Positions 57,761 through 63,615 of a stretch of DNA of 64,000 bases are shown here, one piece after another; the first letter of the stretch is position 1, and the number at the start of each line of letters is the position of its first letter. Under the pieces are notes generated by a model. It made no database searches. It was not told where the DNA came from and saw only the letters and a program-made list of their open reading frames with translations. This DNA is from Candidatus Pelagibacter communis. Lineage in GTDB: Bacteria > Pseudomonadota > Alphaproteobacteria > Pelagibacterales > Pelagibacteraceae. Made by a program: the position numbers and the translations under genes. The stretch is from NCBI RefSeq assembly GCF_001180185.1, contig NZ_CVSS01000043.1, positions 62,001-126,000 on the forward strand. Reading direction: 5' to 3'.

Positions 57761-58204
57761 ATGGAAATAGCAGTTTTAGCACTTGGATGTTTTTGGGGAC
57801 CAGAAATCAAATTTAGTAAAATTGATGGCATAATCAAAACTGAAGTTGGATATTGTGGAGGAAATAGTCCAGTTACAACTTATAAAGAAGTTTGTACAGG
57901 AAATACAAATCATGCTGAAGTAGTTAAGCTCGATTTTGACGAAAAGATCATAACATACGAAAAAATTTTGAAAATTTTCTTTCAAATACATGATCCTACA
58001 ACATTAAACTCTCAAGGACCAGATTTTGGAACTCAATATAGAAGTGAAATATTTTATCTTAATGACAATCAAAAAGAGATAGCTGAAAAAGTACTTCAAA
58101 ATATAAATCTCAGGTTATCAGGTAGAGTTGTAACAAAAATTTCTTTGTTAAAAAACTACTGTCCTGCCGAAGAATACCACCAAAAATATTTAGAAAAAAG
58201 ATAA
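57761..58204 (+). CDS. msrA: Peptide-methionine (S)-S-oxide reductase
   Basis: A 147-residue repair enzyme reducing methionine sulfoxide. Catalytic C10 in LALGCFWGPE, then GYCGGNSPVTTYKEVCTGNTNHAEVV in the active-site region, and the resolving cysteine in NYCPAEEYHQKYL. Compact length. First of a four-gene run with sseA and an efflux pair, separated by 2 to 5 bases. Confidence 0.96.
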   Translation: MEIAVLALGCFWGPEIKFSKIDGIIKTEVGYCGGNSPVTTYKEVCTGNTNHAEVVKLDFDEKIITYEKILKIFFQIHDPTTLNSQGPDFGTQYRSEIFYLNDNQKEIAEKVLQNINLRLSGRVVTKISLLKNYCPAEEYHQKYLEKR

Positions 58205-58206
58205 AC

Positions 58207-59019
58207 ATGGCGCTTGTAAAAACAGATTGGCTAGAAAAAAATATTAAAAATATAAAAATTATTGATTGCTCTTGGCACATGCCTCAAACAAAAAGAAATG
58301 GCTTTGAAGAATATAAAGAAAATCATATACCAAACGCAATTTTTTTTGACTTAGATAAACACTCAAAAATAGATACTAATCTACCTCATATGTTAACTGA
58401 TATTAAATCTTGGGAAGAAATAATGAATAATATGGGTATTGCAAATAATGATACCATAGTAGTTTATGATAATTCAGATGTTATAAGTTCATGCAGGTGC
58501 TGGTATAATTTGATTTACTTTGGTCATAATCCAAACCTTGTACACGTGTTAGATGGGGGATTTAAAAAATGGAAAAAAGAAAAAAAAGTTACTAATAATT
58601 TGAAAGTTATTCCTAAAGTCTCAAAATACTCATGTAAAGAAAATAAAGACCTTGTTAAAAATAAATTGCAGATAAACGAAAATATAATTAAAAAAGAATT
58701 TATTGTTGTTGATGCTCGAAGCAGAGAAAGATTTGAAGGTAAAGTTTCTGAACCAAGAAAAGGTTTAAGAAGTGGATCAATAAAAAATTCTTTTTGCTTA
58801 CCCTATTCTGAGTTAATAAATGAGGATCGTACTTTTATTAGTAAAGATGAAATATTAAAAAAGTTTAAATCACTTAAATTTGATCTTGATGAAAATATAG
58901 TATTTTCATGCGGTTCAGGAATTACTGCAAGTGTATTGGCACTGGCATATTCTTTAATAAATGATAAATATCACCCTACTATTTATGATGGTTCTTGGGC
59001 TGAATATGGAATGATTTGA
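58207..59019 (+). CDS. sseA: 3-mercaptopyruvate/thiosulfate sulfurtransferase
   Basis: A 270-residue two-domain rhodanese. Active-site loop FSCGSGITASVLALAY (CGSGIT) marks mercaptopyruvate rather than thiosulfate preference. The inactive N-terminal domain shows SCRCWYNLIYFGH. It moves sulfur to cyanide or thiols; with msrA beside it, a sulfur-redox role is reasonable. Confidence 0.93.
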   Translation: MALVKTDWLEKNIKNIKIIDCSWHMPQTKRNGFEEYKENHIPNAIFFDLDKHSKIDTNLPHMLTDIKSWEEIMNNMGIANNDTIVVYDNSDVISSCRCWYNLIYFGHNPNLVHVLDGGFKKWKKEKKVTNNLKVIPKVSKYSCKENKDLVKNKLQINENIIKKEFIVVDARSRERFEGKVSEPRKGLRSGSIKNSFCLPYSELINEDRTFISKDEILKKFKSLKFDLDENIVFSCGSGITASVLALAYSLINDKYHPTIYDGSWAEYGMI

Positions 59020-59024
59020 ATTAG

Positions 59025-59894
59025 ATGAAAAAATCTACAAAAGCTATATCTATAATAATAATATTTTTTCTAATTATTGCAGTGGTTATTATTGGGCGAA
59101 CAATGATTGGAAATCATTTCAAAAAAAAATTCAGTAAAATTCCTCCACCAGGAATAATAGTTACAGAAGTTATTCAAAAAGAATTTTCAGAAAGAATAGA
59201 TACTTTTGGTACAGCAATTTCGAAAAAATCAGAGTCTTATAAAATCAAAAAAGATGATCTTCTTGAAGAACTAAAATTGAAAAATTACATTAAAAAAGGA
59301 GATGTTTTAGTTAAATTAAAAAGTGGAGATATTATTGCGCCATTTAGTGGGGTTATGGGATATACGGGGCTTACTGAAGATATATTAGTTTCAAACAATA
59401 TATTTATTATTACACTTGATGATAACTCAACTATTTATTCAGATATCAAAATTCCTGAAAATTATTCTGCTTATATTAAAAAAGGTCTTCCAGTCGAAGT
59501 TAGATTATCTAGTTTTAAAGATAAAGTTTTTTTAGGAAAAATAGATTTTGTTTCAAGTAGAATAAATGCTGATACAAGAAGTTTATTATCTCGTATTGAA
59601 ATTGATAACAAAGACCTAGAATTAATTTCAGGGTCTCTATTAGAGGTAAGTGTTAAGTTTAATTTAAGAAATTCCTTAGCCATACCTGATACAAGTGTAA
59701 TGATAGAAGGCGATAAATCGTTCGTTTACAAAATTAATGAAAAAAATATTGCTAATAAAATTGAAGTCAAGACAGGACTTAGGAGTAATAAGAATATTGA
59801 AATAATCTCTGGACTTAATGAAGGTGATATTGTGGTGGCGGAAGGTTTGAAAAAAGTACGACCACAAGGAAAAATAAAGCCAATTAATAATTAA
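59025..59894 (+). CDS. RND efflux periplasmic adaptor subunit lacking the alpha-hairpin
   Basis: A 289-residue membrane fusion protein with an N-terminal anchor (about residues 8-27). The lipoyl halves meet directly: the KKGDVLVKL strand (91-98) is followed after only KSGD by IIAPFSGVMGY (103-112), where AcrA-type adaptors have a long alpha-hairpin. The beta-barrel (SDIKIPENYSAYIKKGLPVEV) and the membrane-proximal part (VYKINEKNIANKIEVKTG) are intact. It abuts the RND pump gene, so it is its partner, but docking to a TolC-type channel must differ or be absent. Confidence 0.88.
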   Translation: MKKSTKAISIIIIFFLIIAVVIIGRTMIGNHFKKKFSKIPPPGIIVTEVIQKEFSERIDTFGTAISKKSESYKIKKDDLLEELKLKNYIKKGDVLVKLKSGDIIAPFSGVMGYTGLTEDILVSNNIFIITLDDNSTIYSDIKIPENYSAYIKKGLPVEVRLSSFKDKVFLGKIDFVSSRINADTRSLLSRIEIDNKDLELISGSLLEVSVKFNLRNSLAIPDTSVMIEGDKSFVYKINEKNIANKIEVKTGLRSNKNIEIISGLNEGDIVVAEGLKKVRPQGKIKPINN

Positions 59895-62800
59895 ATGTTT
59901 ATAACTGAATTGAGCATAAAAAGACCAACTGTTTCATGGGTTATGTCTCTTATTTTGATTGTTTTTGGCTTATTCGTATTTTGGAAATTACCAGTAAGAG
60001 AGTTACCAAATGGAATTCAGCCACCTGTTGTCCAAGTGCAAGTGAATTATAAATCAGCCTCAGCTTCAATTGTAGATCAAGAAGTAACTCAAGTTGTTGA
60101 GGATGTAATCGGTGGAGCAGAAGGAATTAAGAATATAGATTCAAAATCTGAAAATGGTAGAAGCACTATTAATATTGAATTTGAGACAAGTATTGACTTA
60201 GATAATGCTGCTAATGATATAAGAGAGAGAGTTGCAAGGGTTATTGATAATCTGCCATCAGAATCTGATCCACCTCAAATATTAAAAAGAGCTGCAGGTT
60301 TTACAACTACTATGTGGCTTTCCCTGTCTTCCTCAACTTGGAGTGATTTAGAATTAGGAGATTTTGCAGAAAGATATTTAGTTGATCAATTATCAAATAT
60401 TAAAAATGTTGGAAGGATTCTAGTAGGAGGGTTAAGAGAGTTGAGTATTAGGGTTTGGGTCGACCCAATTAAACTAGCTGCTAATGACTTAACTATAAAT
60501 GAAGTTGAATTAGCAATGCGTGGTGAAAATATAAGCTTGCCAGCAGGTACTCTTGAGGCAGATAACATCGATTTAACACTTAATTTAGATAAATCATATA
60601 ATGATATAAATTCAATTAAACAGCTTCCAATTAAAAAAACAAATAATAAAGTTATTTTACTTTCTGATATTGCAAATGTTGAATTTGGTCCAGTTTCTGA
60701 AAAAACTCTATTTAAAGCTCAAACTAAAGATCAAATAAATTTAAAAACTGTTGGAATTGGAATCTATGCAAGGAGTGGAGCATCAACTGTTGAACTTTCG
60801 AATGATATAAAAAAAAGAATAACTGAAATTAAAGATACATTACCTGAAGGACTAGATTTAAGAGTTTCTTTTAATAGAGCAAATTATGTGGAAGCAGCTA
60901 TCGAGGAAGTATATAAAACTTTACTAATAGCTTTTATTTTAGTTGTTTTAATAATATATTTATTTTTAGGAAACTTAAAAGCTGTCATAGTGCCTGCTAT
61001 TGCACTTCCAGTTAGTTTAATAGCATCCTTTTTAGGTCTTTATTTATTTGGATTATCAATTAATATTTTTGTTCTTTTAAGTTTTATTCTAGCTATCGGA
61101 ATTATTACAGATGACTCGGTAATTATGACTGATGCTATCTATAGAAGAATAGAACAAGGTGAGACCCCTCTTATTGCTGCATATAAAGGTTCTAAACAAA
61201 TTTCATTTGCGATAATAGCAACTACACTAATTTTAGTAGCAGTTTTTCTCCCACTTATTTTTATTGAAGGAATTTCTGGAACATTATTCAAAGAAACAGC
61301 AATTGCGTTATCATTTTCAATTGTTATATCCTCTTTTGTTGCACTTACTTTATCTCCTATGCTTGCAAGCAAGTTTTTAAACAAAAAAACATCTAAGAAA
61401 GTTTTAATAAAAAAATTTGAAAAATTTTTTTTAAGCTTTGCAAACTTTTATAAAGAAACTCTAGGAGTAATTGTCTATAAAACAAAAGTTGTAAGTGGTT
61501 TTATTATTTTTATTGTCATTGCATCTGTATTACTCTTTGATTTTTCTAAAAAAGAATTACTTCCTCAAGAAGATCGTGGGGCATATCTGATAATTGGGTC
61601 AACAGATGAGGGGAGTTCCTTTGAATATACACAAGAACAGGCTCTTAAAGTTGAAGCAAGACTAATTCCTCTTCTTCAAGCAGAAGATAGTCCATACTCA
61701 AGATTTATTATGCGAGTTCCAGGTTTTGGAGACTCAGCAAATTCTTATAATAGTTTTATAATAATTGCTTTATTAGACGACTGGAAAAACAGAAAAAAAG
61801 GACAACAAGTTGTTTTAAGAGAAGCGATAGGCAAAATTGTTACTCTTCCACAAGCTCTTGCTTTTCCTATCTCTCCTCAATCAATAAGGGTCTCAAATTA
61901 TAATAAACCAGTTCAGATGGTTATTTATGGAAGTTCATATGGTGAACTAGAGGATATACAAAAAAAAGTCATTCAAAAACTTAGATCAAATAAAAATCTC
62001 TCAAGAATAGAGTCAGATTACAACAGAAACAAACCTGAAGTGAAATTATTGATAAATAAAAATAAAGCTAAAGATTTGGGTGTTTCTGCTAAGTCAATAG
62101 GTGAAACTTTGGAAACTCTTTATGGAGGTAAAAAAATTACAACATTTAATAAACTTGGCAAAGAATATCCAATCATCGTCCAACAATATTTAGTTGATAG
62201 AAGAAATAAAGAGGGAATTTCAAAAATATTTGTACGATCTGAGACTAACAAGAAACTAATTTCTTTATCTAATCTTGTAAGTTTCAAAGAAGAAGGCGCA
62301 GCGAAAGAACTTTCAAGATATAACCGCCAAAGGGCAATTACAATTTCTGCAAATTTGAATGAGGGGTATACCTTGGCTGAGGCAATTAAGTTTTTTGAGA
62401 GTGTGATGAAAAATTTAGCTCCTCAAAATCAAATAACTTGGAAAGGTAAATCTGAAGAAATAAAAGAAACAAGTAATGAATTATTTATAATTTTTGCTTT
62501 AGCTTTACTCACAGCATATTTAGTAATGGCCGCAACATTTAATTCATTTATTCATCCTTTTATAATAATTCTTACAGTACCATTAGCAATATTTGGTGGT
62601 TTAGTTTTTATTTTATTTCTTAATACCTCTATAAATATCTTTTCCCAAATAGCATTGATAATATTAATTGGAATTTCAACAAAAAATAGTATTTTAATCG
62701 TTGATTATGCAAATCAAATAAGAGCTAATGGAAAAAATATAGAGTTGGCAGTAAAAGAAGCTTGTGCGATTAGATTTAGACCGATAATCATGACTTCTTT

Positions 62801-63023
62801 AAGTACAATGATTGCAATGTTACCTCTAGTAATTGGTAATTTTGGGCCAGGAGCTGGGGAAGGCTCAAGATTAGCTGTTGGAGCAACAATTTTAGGTGGT
62901 ATGGTTATCTCAACTTTCTTTACCCTTTACGTAACCCCAACTATGTACTTAGCTCTAGCTAATAATACTAAAAGAATAGATGCTGTTGATATTGAATTAA
63001 ACAAACAACTTACTAAAAAATAA
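59895..63023 (+). CDS. RND-family efflux transporter, AcrB-like
   Basis: A 1042-residue pump with the standard 12-helix, two-large-loop plan. N-terminus ITELSIKRPTVSWVMSL, proton-relay aspartates in GIITDDSVIMTDAI of the fourth helix, and the repeat unit with FNSFIHPFIIILTVPLAIFGG and a matching GISTKNSILIVDYANQIR. More similar in style to HAE1/MexF-type multidrug pumps than to heavy-metal types. It overlaps the convergent lytic-transglycosylase-like gene by 11 bases. Confidence 0.95.
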   Translation: MFITELSIKRPTVSWVMSLILIVFGLFVFWKLPVRELPNGIQPPVVQVQVNYKSASASIVDQEVTQVVEDVIGGAEGIKNIDSKSENGRSTINIEFETSIDLDNAANDIRERVARVIDNLPSESDPPQILKRAAGFTTTMWLSLSSSTWSDLELGDFAERYLVDQLSNIKNVGRILVGGLRELSIRVWVDPIKLAANDLTINEVELAMRGENISLPAGTLEADNIDLTLNLDKSYNDINSIKQLPIKKTNNKVILLSDIANVEFGPVSEKTLFKAQTKDQINLKTVGIGIYARSGASTVELSNDIKKRITEIKDTLPEGLDLRVSFNRANYVEAAIEEVYKTLLIAFILVVLIIYLFLGNLKAVIVPAIALPVSLIASFLGLYLFGLSINIFVLLSFILAIGIITDDSVIMTDAIYRRIEQGETPLIAAYKGSKQISFAIIATTLILVAVFLPLIFIEGISGTLFKETAIALSFSIVISSFVALTLSPMLASKFLNKKTSKKVLIKKFEKFFLSFANFYKETLGVIVYKTKVVSGFIIFIVIASVLLFDFSKKELLPQEDRGAYLIIGSTDEGSSFEYTQEQALKVEARLIPLLQAEDSPYSRFIMRVPGFGDSANSYNSFIIIALLDDWKNRKKGQQVVLREAIGKIVTLPQALAFPISPQSIRVSNYNKPVQMVIYGSSYGELEDIQKKVIQKLRSNKNLSRIESDYNRNKPEVKLLINKNKAKDLGVSAKSIGETLETLYGGKKITTFNKLGKEYPIIVQQYLVDRRNKEGISKIFVRSETNKKLISLSNLVSFKEEGAAKELSRYNRQRAITISANLNEGYTLAEAIKFFESVMKNLAPQNQITWKGKSEEIKETSNELFIIFALALLTAYLVMAATFNSFIHPFIIILTVPLAIFGGLVFILFLNTSINIFSQIALIILIGISTKNSILIVDYANQIRANGKNIELAVKEACAIRFRPIIMTSLSTMIAMLPLVIGNFGPGAGEGSRLAVGATILGGMVISTFFTLYVTPTMYLALANNTKRIDAVDIELNKQLTKK

Positions 63024-63615
63024 TATATTTATTTTTACTCAAAGAATTTTTACATTTTGAAAGTTGCTTTTTATATATTCTAGATTGTTTATCAACTTTT
63101 TTAGCAAGTTTTATAACTTTTTTGTTTCTTTTATAATTTTTATAATTTCCCCAGCCTTCATGATAAGCTAGATATTGTCTAAAGCCATCATTAAGGGAAA
63201 TTTTCAAAATTGACTTCGTTTTATTTGTGTACCAACCAATAAAATCTACACTATCTTTATAACGAGCTCTTGTTGCAAATTTATTGCCAGTTTCAATTTT
63301 ATATTGTTCCCACGTTCCTTTTACGGCCTGAGAATATCCAAATGAGCTAGAAGGTCGTTTAAACGGAATTACTTTAAATAATTTTTGTCTAGGAGGTTTT
63401 GCTAACCAATCAAAATCTGACTCCATTTTAATAATAGCTAATTGGATATAAATTGGCGTACCCCATTTGAGTTCAACTTTCTTTGAATGTTTGTACCAAA
63501 GATATTTTTCACTAAAAATTTCACAACTATTTGAGGTATTTTTGGGAATCGATGAACAACCAGATAAAATAATCAATAAAAATAATAGAAATATCTTATT
63601 ATAATTTTTTGTCAT
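63013..63615 (-). CDS. Lytic transglycosylase-like (SLT) lipoprotein
   Basis: A 200-residue protein with lipobox LSGC (C20). The SLT-type lysozyme fold is seen in IIKMESDFDW (catalytic glutamate in MESDF), then SSSFGYSQAVKGTWEQYK and LAYHEGWGNYKNYKRN. It probably cuts peptidoglycan from the outer or inner membrane. Its C-terminus is very basic. It overlaps the VanZ-like gene by 17 bases. Confidence 0.88.
   Translation of the reverse strand: MTKNYNKIFLLFLLIILSGCSSIPKNTSNSCEIFSEKYLWYKHSKKVELKWGTPIYIQLAIIKMESDFDWLAKPPRQKLFKVIPFKRPSSSFGYSQAVKGTWEQYKIETGNKFATRARYKDSVDFIGWYTNKTKSILKISLNDGFRQYLAYHEGWGNYKNYKRNKKVIKLAKKVDKQSRIYKKQLSKCKNSLSKNKYIIF

Follow-up and report, generated by a model that had tools for sequence, protein, structure and literature searches.

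An RND adaptor without an α-helical hairpin is general in Pelagibacteraceae and may belong to a compact TolC-dependent pump

How can an RND pump connect to the outer membrane if its periplasmic adaptor lacks the α-helical hairpin? This question is raised by a gene at positions 59025-59894 of a 64,000-nucleotide stretch of DNA from Candidatus Pelagibacter communis (contig NZ_CVSS01000043.1, positions 62,001 to 126,000; hereafter the window), a member of the Pelagibacteraceae (SAR11). A preliminary description, made from the sequence of the window, held that the two lipoyl half-motifs of the encoded adaptor are only about four residues apart (99-102) and that the hairpin is missing. This proved exact. 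The first lipoyl half closes with KKGDVLVKL (residues 90-98), and KSGD and then IIAPFSG come next. The features of the gene are as follows.

59025..59894, + strand: hairpin-less RND periplasmic adaptor (P0001, 289 amino acids), from the open reading frame, Pfam and NCBIfam matches and profile alignment
59043..59096, + strand: N-terminal hydrophobic segment, approximately residues 7-24, from the sequence
59295..59318, + strand: end of the first lipoyl half-motif, residues 91-98, KGDVLVKL, from the sequence and alignment
59319..59330, + strand: four-residue junction KSGD, residues 99-102, where relatives have an α-hairpin of 66-80 residues
59331..59351, + strand: start of the second lipoyl half-motif, residues 103-109, IIAPFSG, from the sequence and alignment

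An hhalign comparison of 22 SAR11 adaptors with 13 hairpin-bearing relatives gave a probability of 100% and an E value of 1.8e-58 over 282 aligned columns. The alignment contains a single gap, of 61 residues, between VLVKL and KSGDIIAP, and is otherwise collinear. Thus, apart from the hairpin, the protein evidently retains its whole architecture: N-terminal hydrophobic segment, two lipoyl halves, barrel and membrane-proximal part. Conserved positions run along all of these domains in the 22-row SAR11 alignment, in which the junction is four residues long in 20 sequences and five in the other two. Matches to Pfam and NCBIfam models cover only the portion of the protein beyond residue 97-102: residues 102-201 correspond to positions 110-209 of 214 in HlyD_D23, and residues 97-286 to positions 131-321 of 322 in TIGR01730 (RND_mfp; 136.6 bits, above the cut-off of 94.9). 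The product has, at the level of sequence, both lipoyl halves, the β-barrel and the membrane-proximal domain of an RND adaptor, and its gene adjoins an RND gene on the same strand, a pairing that recurs in all 58 long loci. The hairpin that canonical adaptors carry between the lipoyl halves is absent. By these features the product is a member of the RND adaptor family, but not of its canonical form.

The missing hairpin is not an oddity of one genome. The adaptor was found in 134 of 147 Pelagibacteraceae genomes, including all 53 that are at least 90% complete; completeness is 55-86% for the 13 that gave no match. Every one of the 131 full-length matches (278-289 query residues), as taken from the listing by eye, spans 834-870 nucleotides, which leaves no space for a hairpin, and the other three genomes (G082, G120, G133) have partial matches only. 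No internal stop occurs in any adaptor match listed among the family genomes. In a second collection, 79 of the best 80 of 498 relatives encode exactly 289 amino acids and one ends at a contig edge. A SAR11 adaptor profile applied to 28 family genomes at an E value of 1e-10 found one match in each. Thus, the loss is clade-wide, a point that the preliminary description had proposed to check, and the missing hairpin, which it called unusual here, is the rule within the family. One genome (G048:C12:104869-105264) has a second, weak adaptor-like match, in a frame of 482 amino acids (28% identity, E 2.1e-10), beside its hairpin-less adaptor.

Relatives with a full hairpin were found only outside the family, in comparisons made within the phylum (a class-wide sample of 152 genomes and a phylum-wide sample of 249). 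In the 71 outside adaptors that were measured, the lipoyl halves are separated by 66 residues in 62, by 68 in one and by 80 in eight; these comprise the 28 best and 13 hand-picked class-wide matches, most of the latter chosen for an early match start, two from a second family of the same order and 28 among the phylum-wide matches listed. Escherichia coli AcrA likewise has 80 residues at this place. Unmeasured matches were judged by frame length only, and the listed outside frames shorter than 320 amino acids are those in G215 (306, hairpin present), G217 (257) and G502 (232), the last two being outside the measured set. A profile without a hairpin should favor hairpin-less relatives, yet outside matches in both samples mostly start near profile residue 90-100, beyond the hairpin site. 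Early-starting outside matches were considered as hairpin-less candidates (G172, G294, G163, G201, G215, G281, G160, G246, G265, G529 and G435), and all carry hairpins. An RLS-like pattern is found in 35 of 72 rows (the 71 outside adaptors and AcrA), and an RND-sized frame is present in nine of ten regions fetched around hairpin-bearing adaptors. Two of the genomes named above (G294 and G163; L192, L193, L225) are only about 0.6 Mb in size and 88% complete and encode an RND-type adaptor with a hairpin; a long RND frame lies near it in G163, and no PF02321 channel was detected at 1e-10 in either genome.

The second family of the order (30 genomes sampled) yielded no orthologue. Weak matches of about 1e-11 occur in five of its genomes, and the two adaptors that were read both bear hairpins. 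Another of its genomes, from which neither of these two adaptors comes (G297:C2:319294-322138), has a TolC-like gene near a different adaptor-like gene, in a frame of 357 amino acids.

The eight SAR11 adaptors in an 80-row tree form one clade (100/100), which is nested in a 47-row group (87/93) that otherwise bears hairpins, with nearest neighbors that are not resolved. The tree was midpoint-rooted for drawing only and leaves out spirochaete sequences, and the exact placement of the clade is unsure, as SAR11 composition is unlike that of most other rows. Because every non-SAR11 row has a hairpin, the simplest reading is a single loss of the hairpin, no later than in the common ancestor of the Pelagibacteraceae sampled.

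A likeness to Borrelia BesA had been proposed for this adaptor and is borne out. BesA, of the BesABC system of Borrelia burgdorferi (PDB 4KKS, 4KKT, 4KKU), has no hairpin; its lipoyl halves are joined by a loop of nine residues, according to Greene et al. (PMC3807786), compared with four in the SAR11 protein. The SAR11 profile matches BesA with an E value of 1.3e-11 (positions 82-284). The two systems differ in other respects. BesA is lipidated at Cys26, whereas the SAR11 adaptor contains no cysteine and thus has no lipobox. The channel gene besC is in the same operon as besA, whereas SAR11 tolC is next to recA, on another contig in the source genome. Finally, the primary gate of BesC is described as disrupted (PMC4446572, PMC8277102), whereas SAR11 TolC keeps its gate residues and has changes in its tip element. 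All outside proteobacterial relatives measured carry hairpins, so the SAR11 loss looks separate from that of BesA.

The gene immediately downstream encodes the presumed pump:

59895..63023, + strand: AcrB-type RND permease (P0002, 1042 amino acids), starting on the base after the adaptor stop codon

PF00873 (ACR_tran) matches the permease over its whole length (residues 4-1021, 848.9 bits). Equivalents of D407, D408, K940, R971 and T978, which we take to be the proton-relay residues of AcrB, are retained in all eight SAR11 permeases aligned. A full-length ACR_tran match together with these residues marks the protein as AcrB-type (HAE-1); among NCBIfam models, NF033617 fits it best but reaches 900.1 bits, short of the cut-off of 1250. 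A search of 16 genomes gave a single full-length RND match per genome; the remaining hits are short, and one, in G012, exceeds the cut-off (30.3 bits). In a single-contig genome (G040:C1:270574-273599), the RND reading occupies two successive frames of 519 and 580 amino acids and has a split or frameshifted look.

The preliminary description noted correctly that no outer-membrane channel gene is next to the pump. A search of the genome for TolC homologues, which it had recommended, found a TolC gene on another contig, between a gene that we take to be kinase-like and one that is presumably recA. TolC is present in all 16 genomes chosen for closer study, in 123 of 147 family genomes and in 51 of the 53 that are near-complete. 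A table in PMC3686209 also counts TolC among the core genes of SAR11.

Which adaptors might this TolC serve? In 13 of 16 genomes, no PF16576 (HlyD_D23) match other than the hairpin-less adaptor exceeds the cut-off, and a type I secretion HlyD over the cut-off was found in none of the 16, weak TIGR01843 matches being present in 13. With no HlyD and usually no second PF16576 adaptor, SAR11 TolC is usually without another evident adaptor partner. Long frames of the source genome that match PF16576 and TIGR01843 weakly were considered as a second adaptor and rejected; they encode lipoyl enzymes, which we presume to be pyruvate-dehydrogenase-like. One genome (G043; L213, L214) has an extra outer-membrane channel-like gene of 830 amino acids and a giant repeat-rich open reading frame. 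Near these are its extra HlyD-like genes; G043 has three HlyD-like genes, one encoding a 700-amino-acid membrane protein with an adaptor-like part, and similar matches occur in G026.

The periplasmic tip of TolC, whose comparison had also been suggested, differs between SAR11 and its relatives. Both tip glycines (G147 and G365) are retained in 16 of 16 SAR11 TolCs. The residue at position 146 is arginine in 12, lysine in three and asparagine in one, and thus polar or charged in all 16, whereas it is valine, isoleucine or leucine in 10 of 11 TolC-like relatives and in 15 of all 20 outside channels; the 11 relatives were picked from the 20 after the alignment had been seen, and a hairpin adaptor was shown in not all of the genomes behind them. 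Position 364 is serine in 12, threonine in two and arginine in two of the 16 SAR11 proteins, compared with valine, isoleucine or leucine in 10 of the 11 relatives and 14 of the 20. Residue 151 is leucine, isoleucine or alanine in all 16 but arginine or lysine in 11 of 11 relatives, and residue 160 is serine in all 16 but arginine in 11 of 11. One or two residues are inserted after G365 in nine of 16 SAR11 TolCs, but in none of the 20 outside channels. In a cryo-electron microscopy structure, E. coli TolC meets the AcrA hairpin by a Val-Gly-Leu/Thr element (PMC5404916), and positions 146 and 364 are those directly before its glycines.

The channel is not longer. SAR11 TolC coiled coils measure 126-131 and 115-123 residues, compared with 130 and 125 in E. 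coli, so a longer TolC barrel was rejected as compensation for the lost hairpin. Overall, the SAR11 proteins agree with E. coli AcrA/AcrB/TolC in domain order, in the relay residues of the RND protein, and in the coiled-coil lengths and primary-gate residues of TolC. They differ in that E. coli has an 80-residue AcrA hairpin and the TolC pairs V146-G147 and V364-G365, whereas in SAR11 each of these glycines follows a polar or charged residue.

We consider it probable, from these sequence comparisons, that the hairpin-less protein is the adaptor of an AcrB-type pump, that its hairpin was lost once, and that the TolC encoded next to recA is its channel, docking on the RND permease and the lipoyl ring. 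In such a pump, the barrel, lipoyl and membrane-proximal parts of the adaptor would form a ring around the RND trimer, and proton-driven cycling of the permease would move the substrate. TolC would seat lower than in AcrAB-TolC because no hairpin bridges the gap, and would be in direct contact with the docking domain of the permease and the lipoyl ring of the adaptor. The pump would then be shorter by roughly the length of a hairpin, which for AcrA is 47 Å. Both that length and a proposal, made for BesABC, that the channel docks directly on the funnel of the RND protein and on the lipoyl ring are found in Greene et al. (PMC3807786). We infer the physical contact and the direction of transport, and likewise the substrate and what opens TolC, from the features described above. 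More tentatively, and with somewhat more doubt than belief, hairpin loss with a matched TolC tip change may mean that the SAR11 pump was re-engineered into a compact trans-envelope machine, independently of spirochaetes and with the gate retained.

Several results weigh against this proposal. The most telling against a simple copy of BesABC is, on sequence grounds, the retained gate: D153, Y362 and R367 are present in 16 of 16 SAR11 TolCs, so that a gate loss like that of BesC, for which we looked, was not seen. If TolC is the partner, its opener must be something other than a hairpin. Of the gate-region residues, Y362 is found in none of the 11 TolC-like relatives, and D374 is replaced in all 16 SAR11 proteins, as it is in four of the 11. 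No compensation is visible in the RND docking loops, whose lengths are as in most hairpin-bearing relatives: DN has 86-87 and DC 93 residues in SAR11, whereas among nine outside permeases DN has 86-87 in eight and 99 in one, and DC has 93 in seven, 92 in one and 101 in one. The gene tolC is not linked to the pump locus, and no TolC was found in two of the 53 near-complete family genomes. Further adaptor-like genes occur in G026, G043 and G005 (PF16576) and in G048. Structure prediction of the adaptor from an alignment of 26 close sequences, where the loci suited to such modeling are all approximately 80% alike, was too poor to use (predicted local distance difference test score, pLDDT, 40.9; predicted template modeling score, pTM, 0.27). 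Finally, the formal test of tip divergence, which used 12 relatives and tip windows fixed after the tips had already been seen, gave a mixed result that depends on the measure: by BLOSUM contrast, only nine of 415 circular shifts score as high and 11 of the top 35 columns lie at the tips (3.5 expected), whereas Jensen-Shannon divergence gives no tip excess (196 of 415 circular shifts).

Some of these points also fit another reading, in which the adaptor and RND permease are a two-part system that delivers substrates to the periplasm, from the inner membrane or the inner part of the periplasm, or acts on lipids, with TolC serving another exporter. An unlinked tolC and retained primary-gate residues agree with such a system, as does the fact that an adaptor without a hairpin cannot reach TolC in that way. 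However, the RND docking loops have their usual length, 13 of 16 genomes have no other PF16576 adaptor over the cut-off and none of the 16 an HlyD over the cut-off, and a tip change at the hairpin-contact element is unexpected in a TolC that serves ordinary hairpin adaptors. We therefore regard a two-part system as unlikely, though it deserves serious consideration. The preliminary description had offered a different exit duct, a two-part system or lipid or peptide export into the periplasm; no positive evidence was obtained for any of these, and the changed tip favors TolC as the partner.

A different solution would be a hairpin supplied in trans, by another, unrecognized protein that joins the adaptor to TolC. 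Greene et al. leave this possibility standing for BesA (PMC3807786), and several conserved neighbor genes adjoin the adaptor and permease genes of SAR11:

57761..58204, + strand: MsrA-like open reading frame, ending two bases before the rhodanese gene
58207..59019, + strand: rhodanese-domain protein, a conserved neighbor, ending five bases before the adaptor gene
63013-63615, - strand: lytic transglycosylase (SLT_4), convergent with the RND gene and overlapping its 3' end; present in this position in all 58 long loci

The name MsrA is our presumption from the sequence of this frame rather than the outcome of a family search. A seven-gene order, with strands and including the downstream transglycosylase, is kept in all 58 long loci. 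Of 29 additional family loci, for which the flanks are short, 27 likewise contain both upstream genes (rhodanese and MsrA-like); of the two exceptions, one is cut by its contig and the other (L016) lacks the upstream genes within 1.5 kb. However, those neighbors that match a protein family do so as a rhodanese and as a lytic transglycosylase, neither of which is an adaptor, and each of the 28 family genomes searched has a single match to the SAR11 adaptor profile at 1e-10. In addition, the TolC tip is altered at the very element that hairpins meet. A hairpin in trans thus seems quite improbable.

Less probable still is a degenerating pump, in which a functionless adaptor persists in an operon decaying under genome streamlining. 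The split RND reading in G040 could be taken in this sense, but the adaptor is present in every near-complete genome with no stops in the matches listed, conserved positions extend across its kept domains, the relay residues stand in all eight permeases, and the uniform gene order of the 58 loci is unlike decay. An annotation or assembly artefact, such as the deletion error in this contig that the preliminary description named as grounds for refutation, can be rejected with near certainty, as the same junction length recurs in all 131 full-length family matches and 79 of 80 second-collection loci encode 289 amino acids.

Hairpin-less adaptors as such are known already, from the crystal structure of BesA and, by sequence, from Treponema, Spirochaeta and "rarely in proteobacteria (e.g. 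Legionella)", in the words of Greene et al. (PMC3807786). We found no report of a hairpin-less SAR11 adaptor among the papers listed in the literature searched, which lay outside subscription journals; in the parts seen, PMC12487129 and PMC3686209 name TolC or AcrB only in tables. As far as this literature shows, the new elements are a family-wide loss in proteobacteria, a separate tolC with kept gate residues, and a changed tip.

SAR11 bacteria are very abundant in the ocean and include cultured strains. They provide a second, apparently separate hairpin-less case, with hairpin-bearing relatives at hand for comparison, and the genomes examined each encode a single full-length AcrB-type pump and, in most cases, a single TolC. 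If the proposed compact pump exists, a shorter assembly and matched TolC changes are predicted, both of which are measurable, and it would represent naturally evolved direct docking between transporter and channel in proteobacteria, fixed in very numerous ocean cells.

Those hairpin-bearing relatives include alphaproteobacterial RND adaptors (TIGR01730-like, L144-L171), which are collinear with the SAR11 protein over the 282 columns noted above for 13 of the outside relatives but, unlike it, have 66-80 hairpin residues. The best sequence match of the SAR11 profile in the PDB is MexJ of Pseudomonas aeruginosa (20yy_D; E 1e-16, positions 104-287). This match is strong only beyond the hairpin, and MexJ has approximately 75 more residues between its lipoyl halves than does the SAR11 adaptor.

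The two ends of the adaptor deserve brief comment. The N-terminal hydrophobic segment is likely to be an uncleaved membrane anchor, a role suggested by its sequence. At the other end, several SAR11 adaptors (L019, L029, L132) carry a lysine-rich C-terminal tail of about 40 residues that has no counterpart in the 59025-59894 protein.
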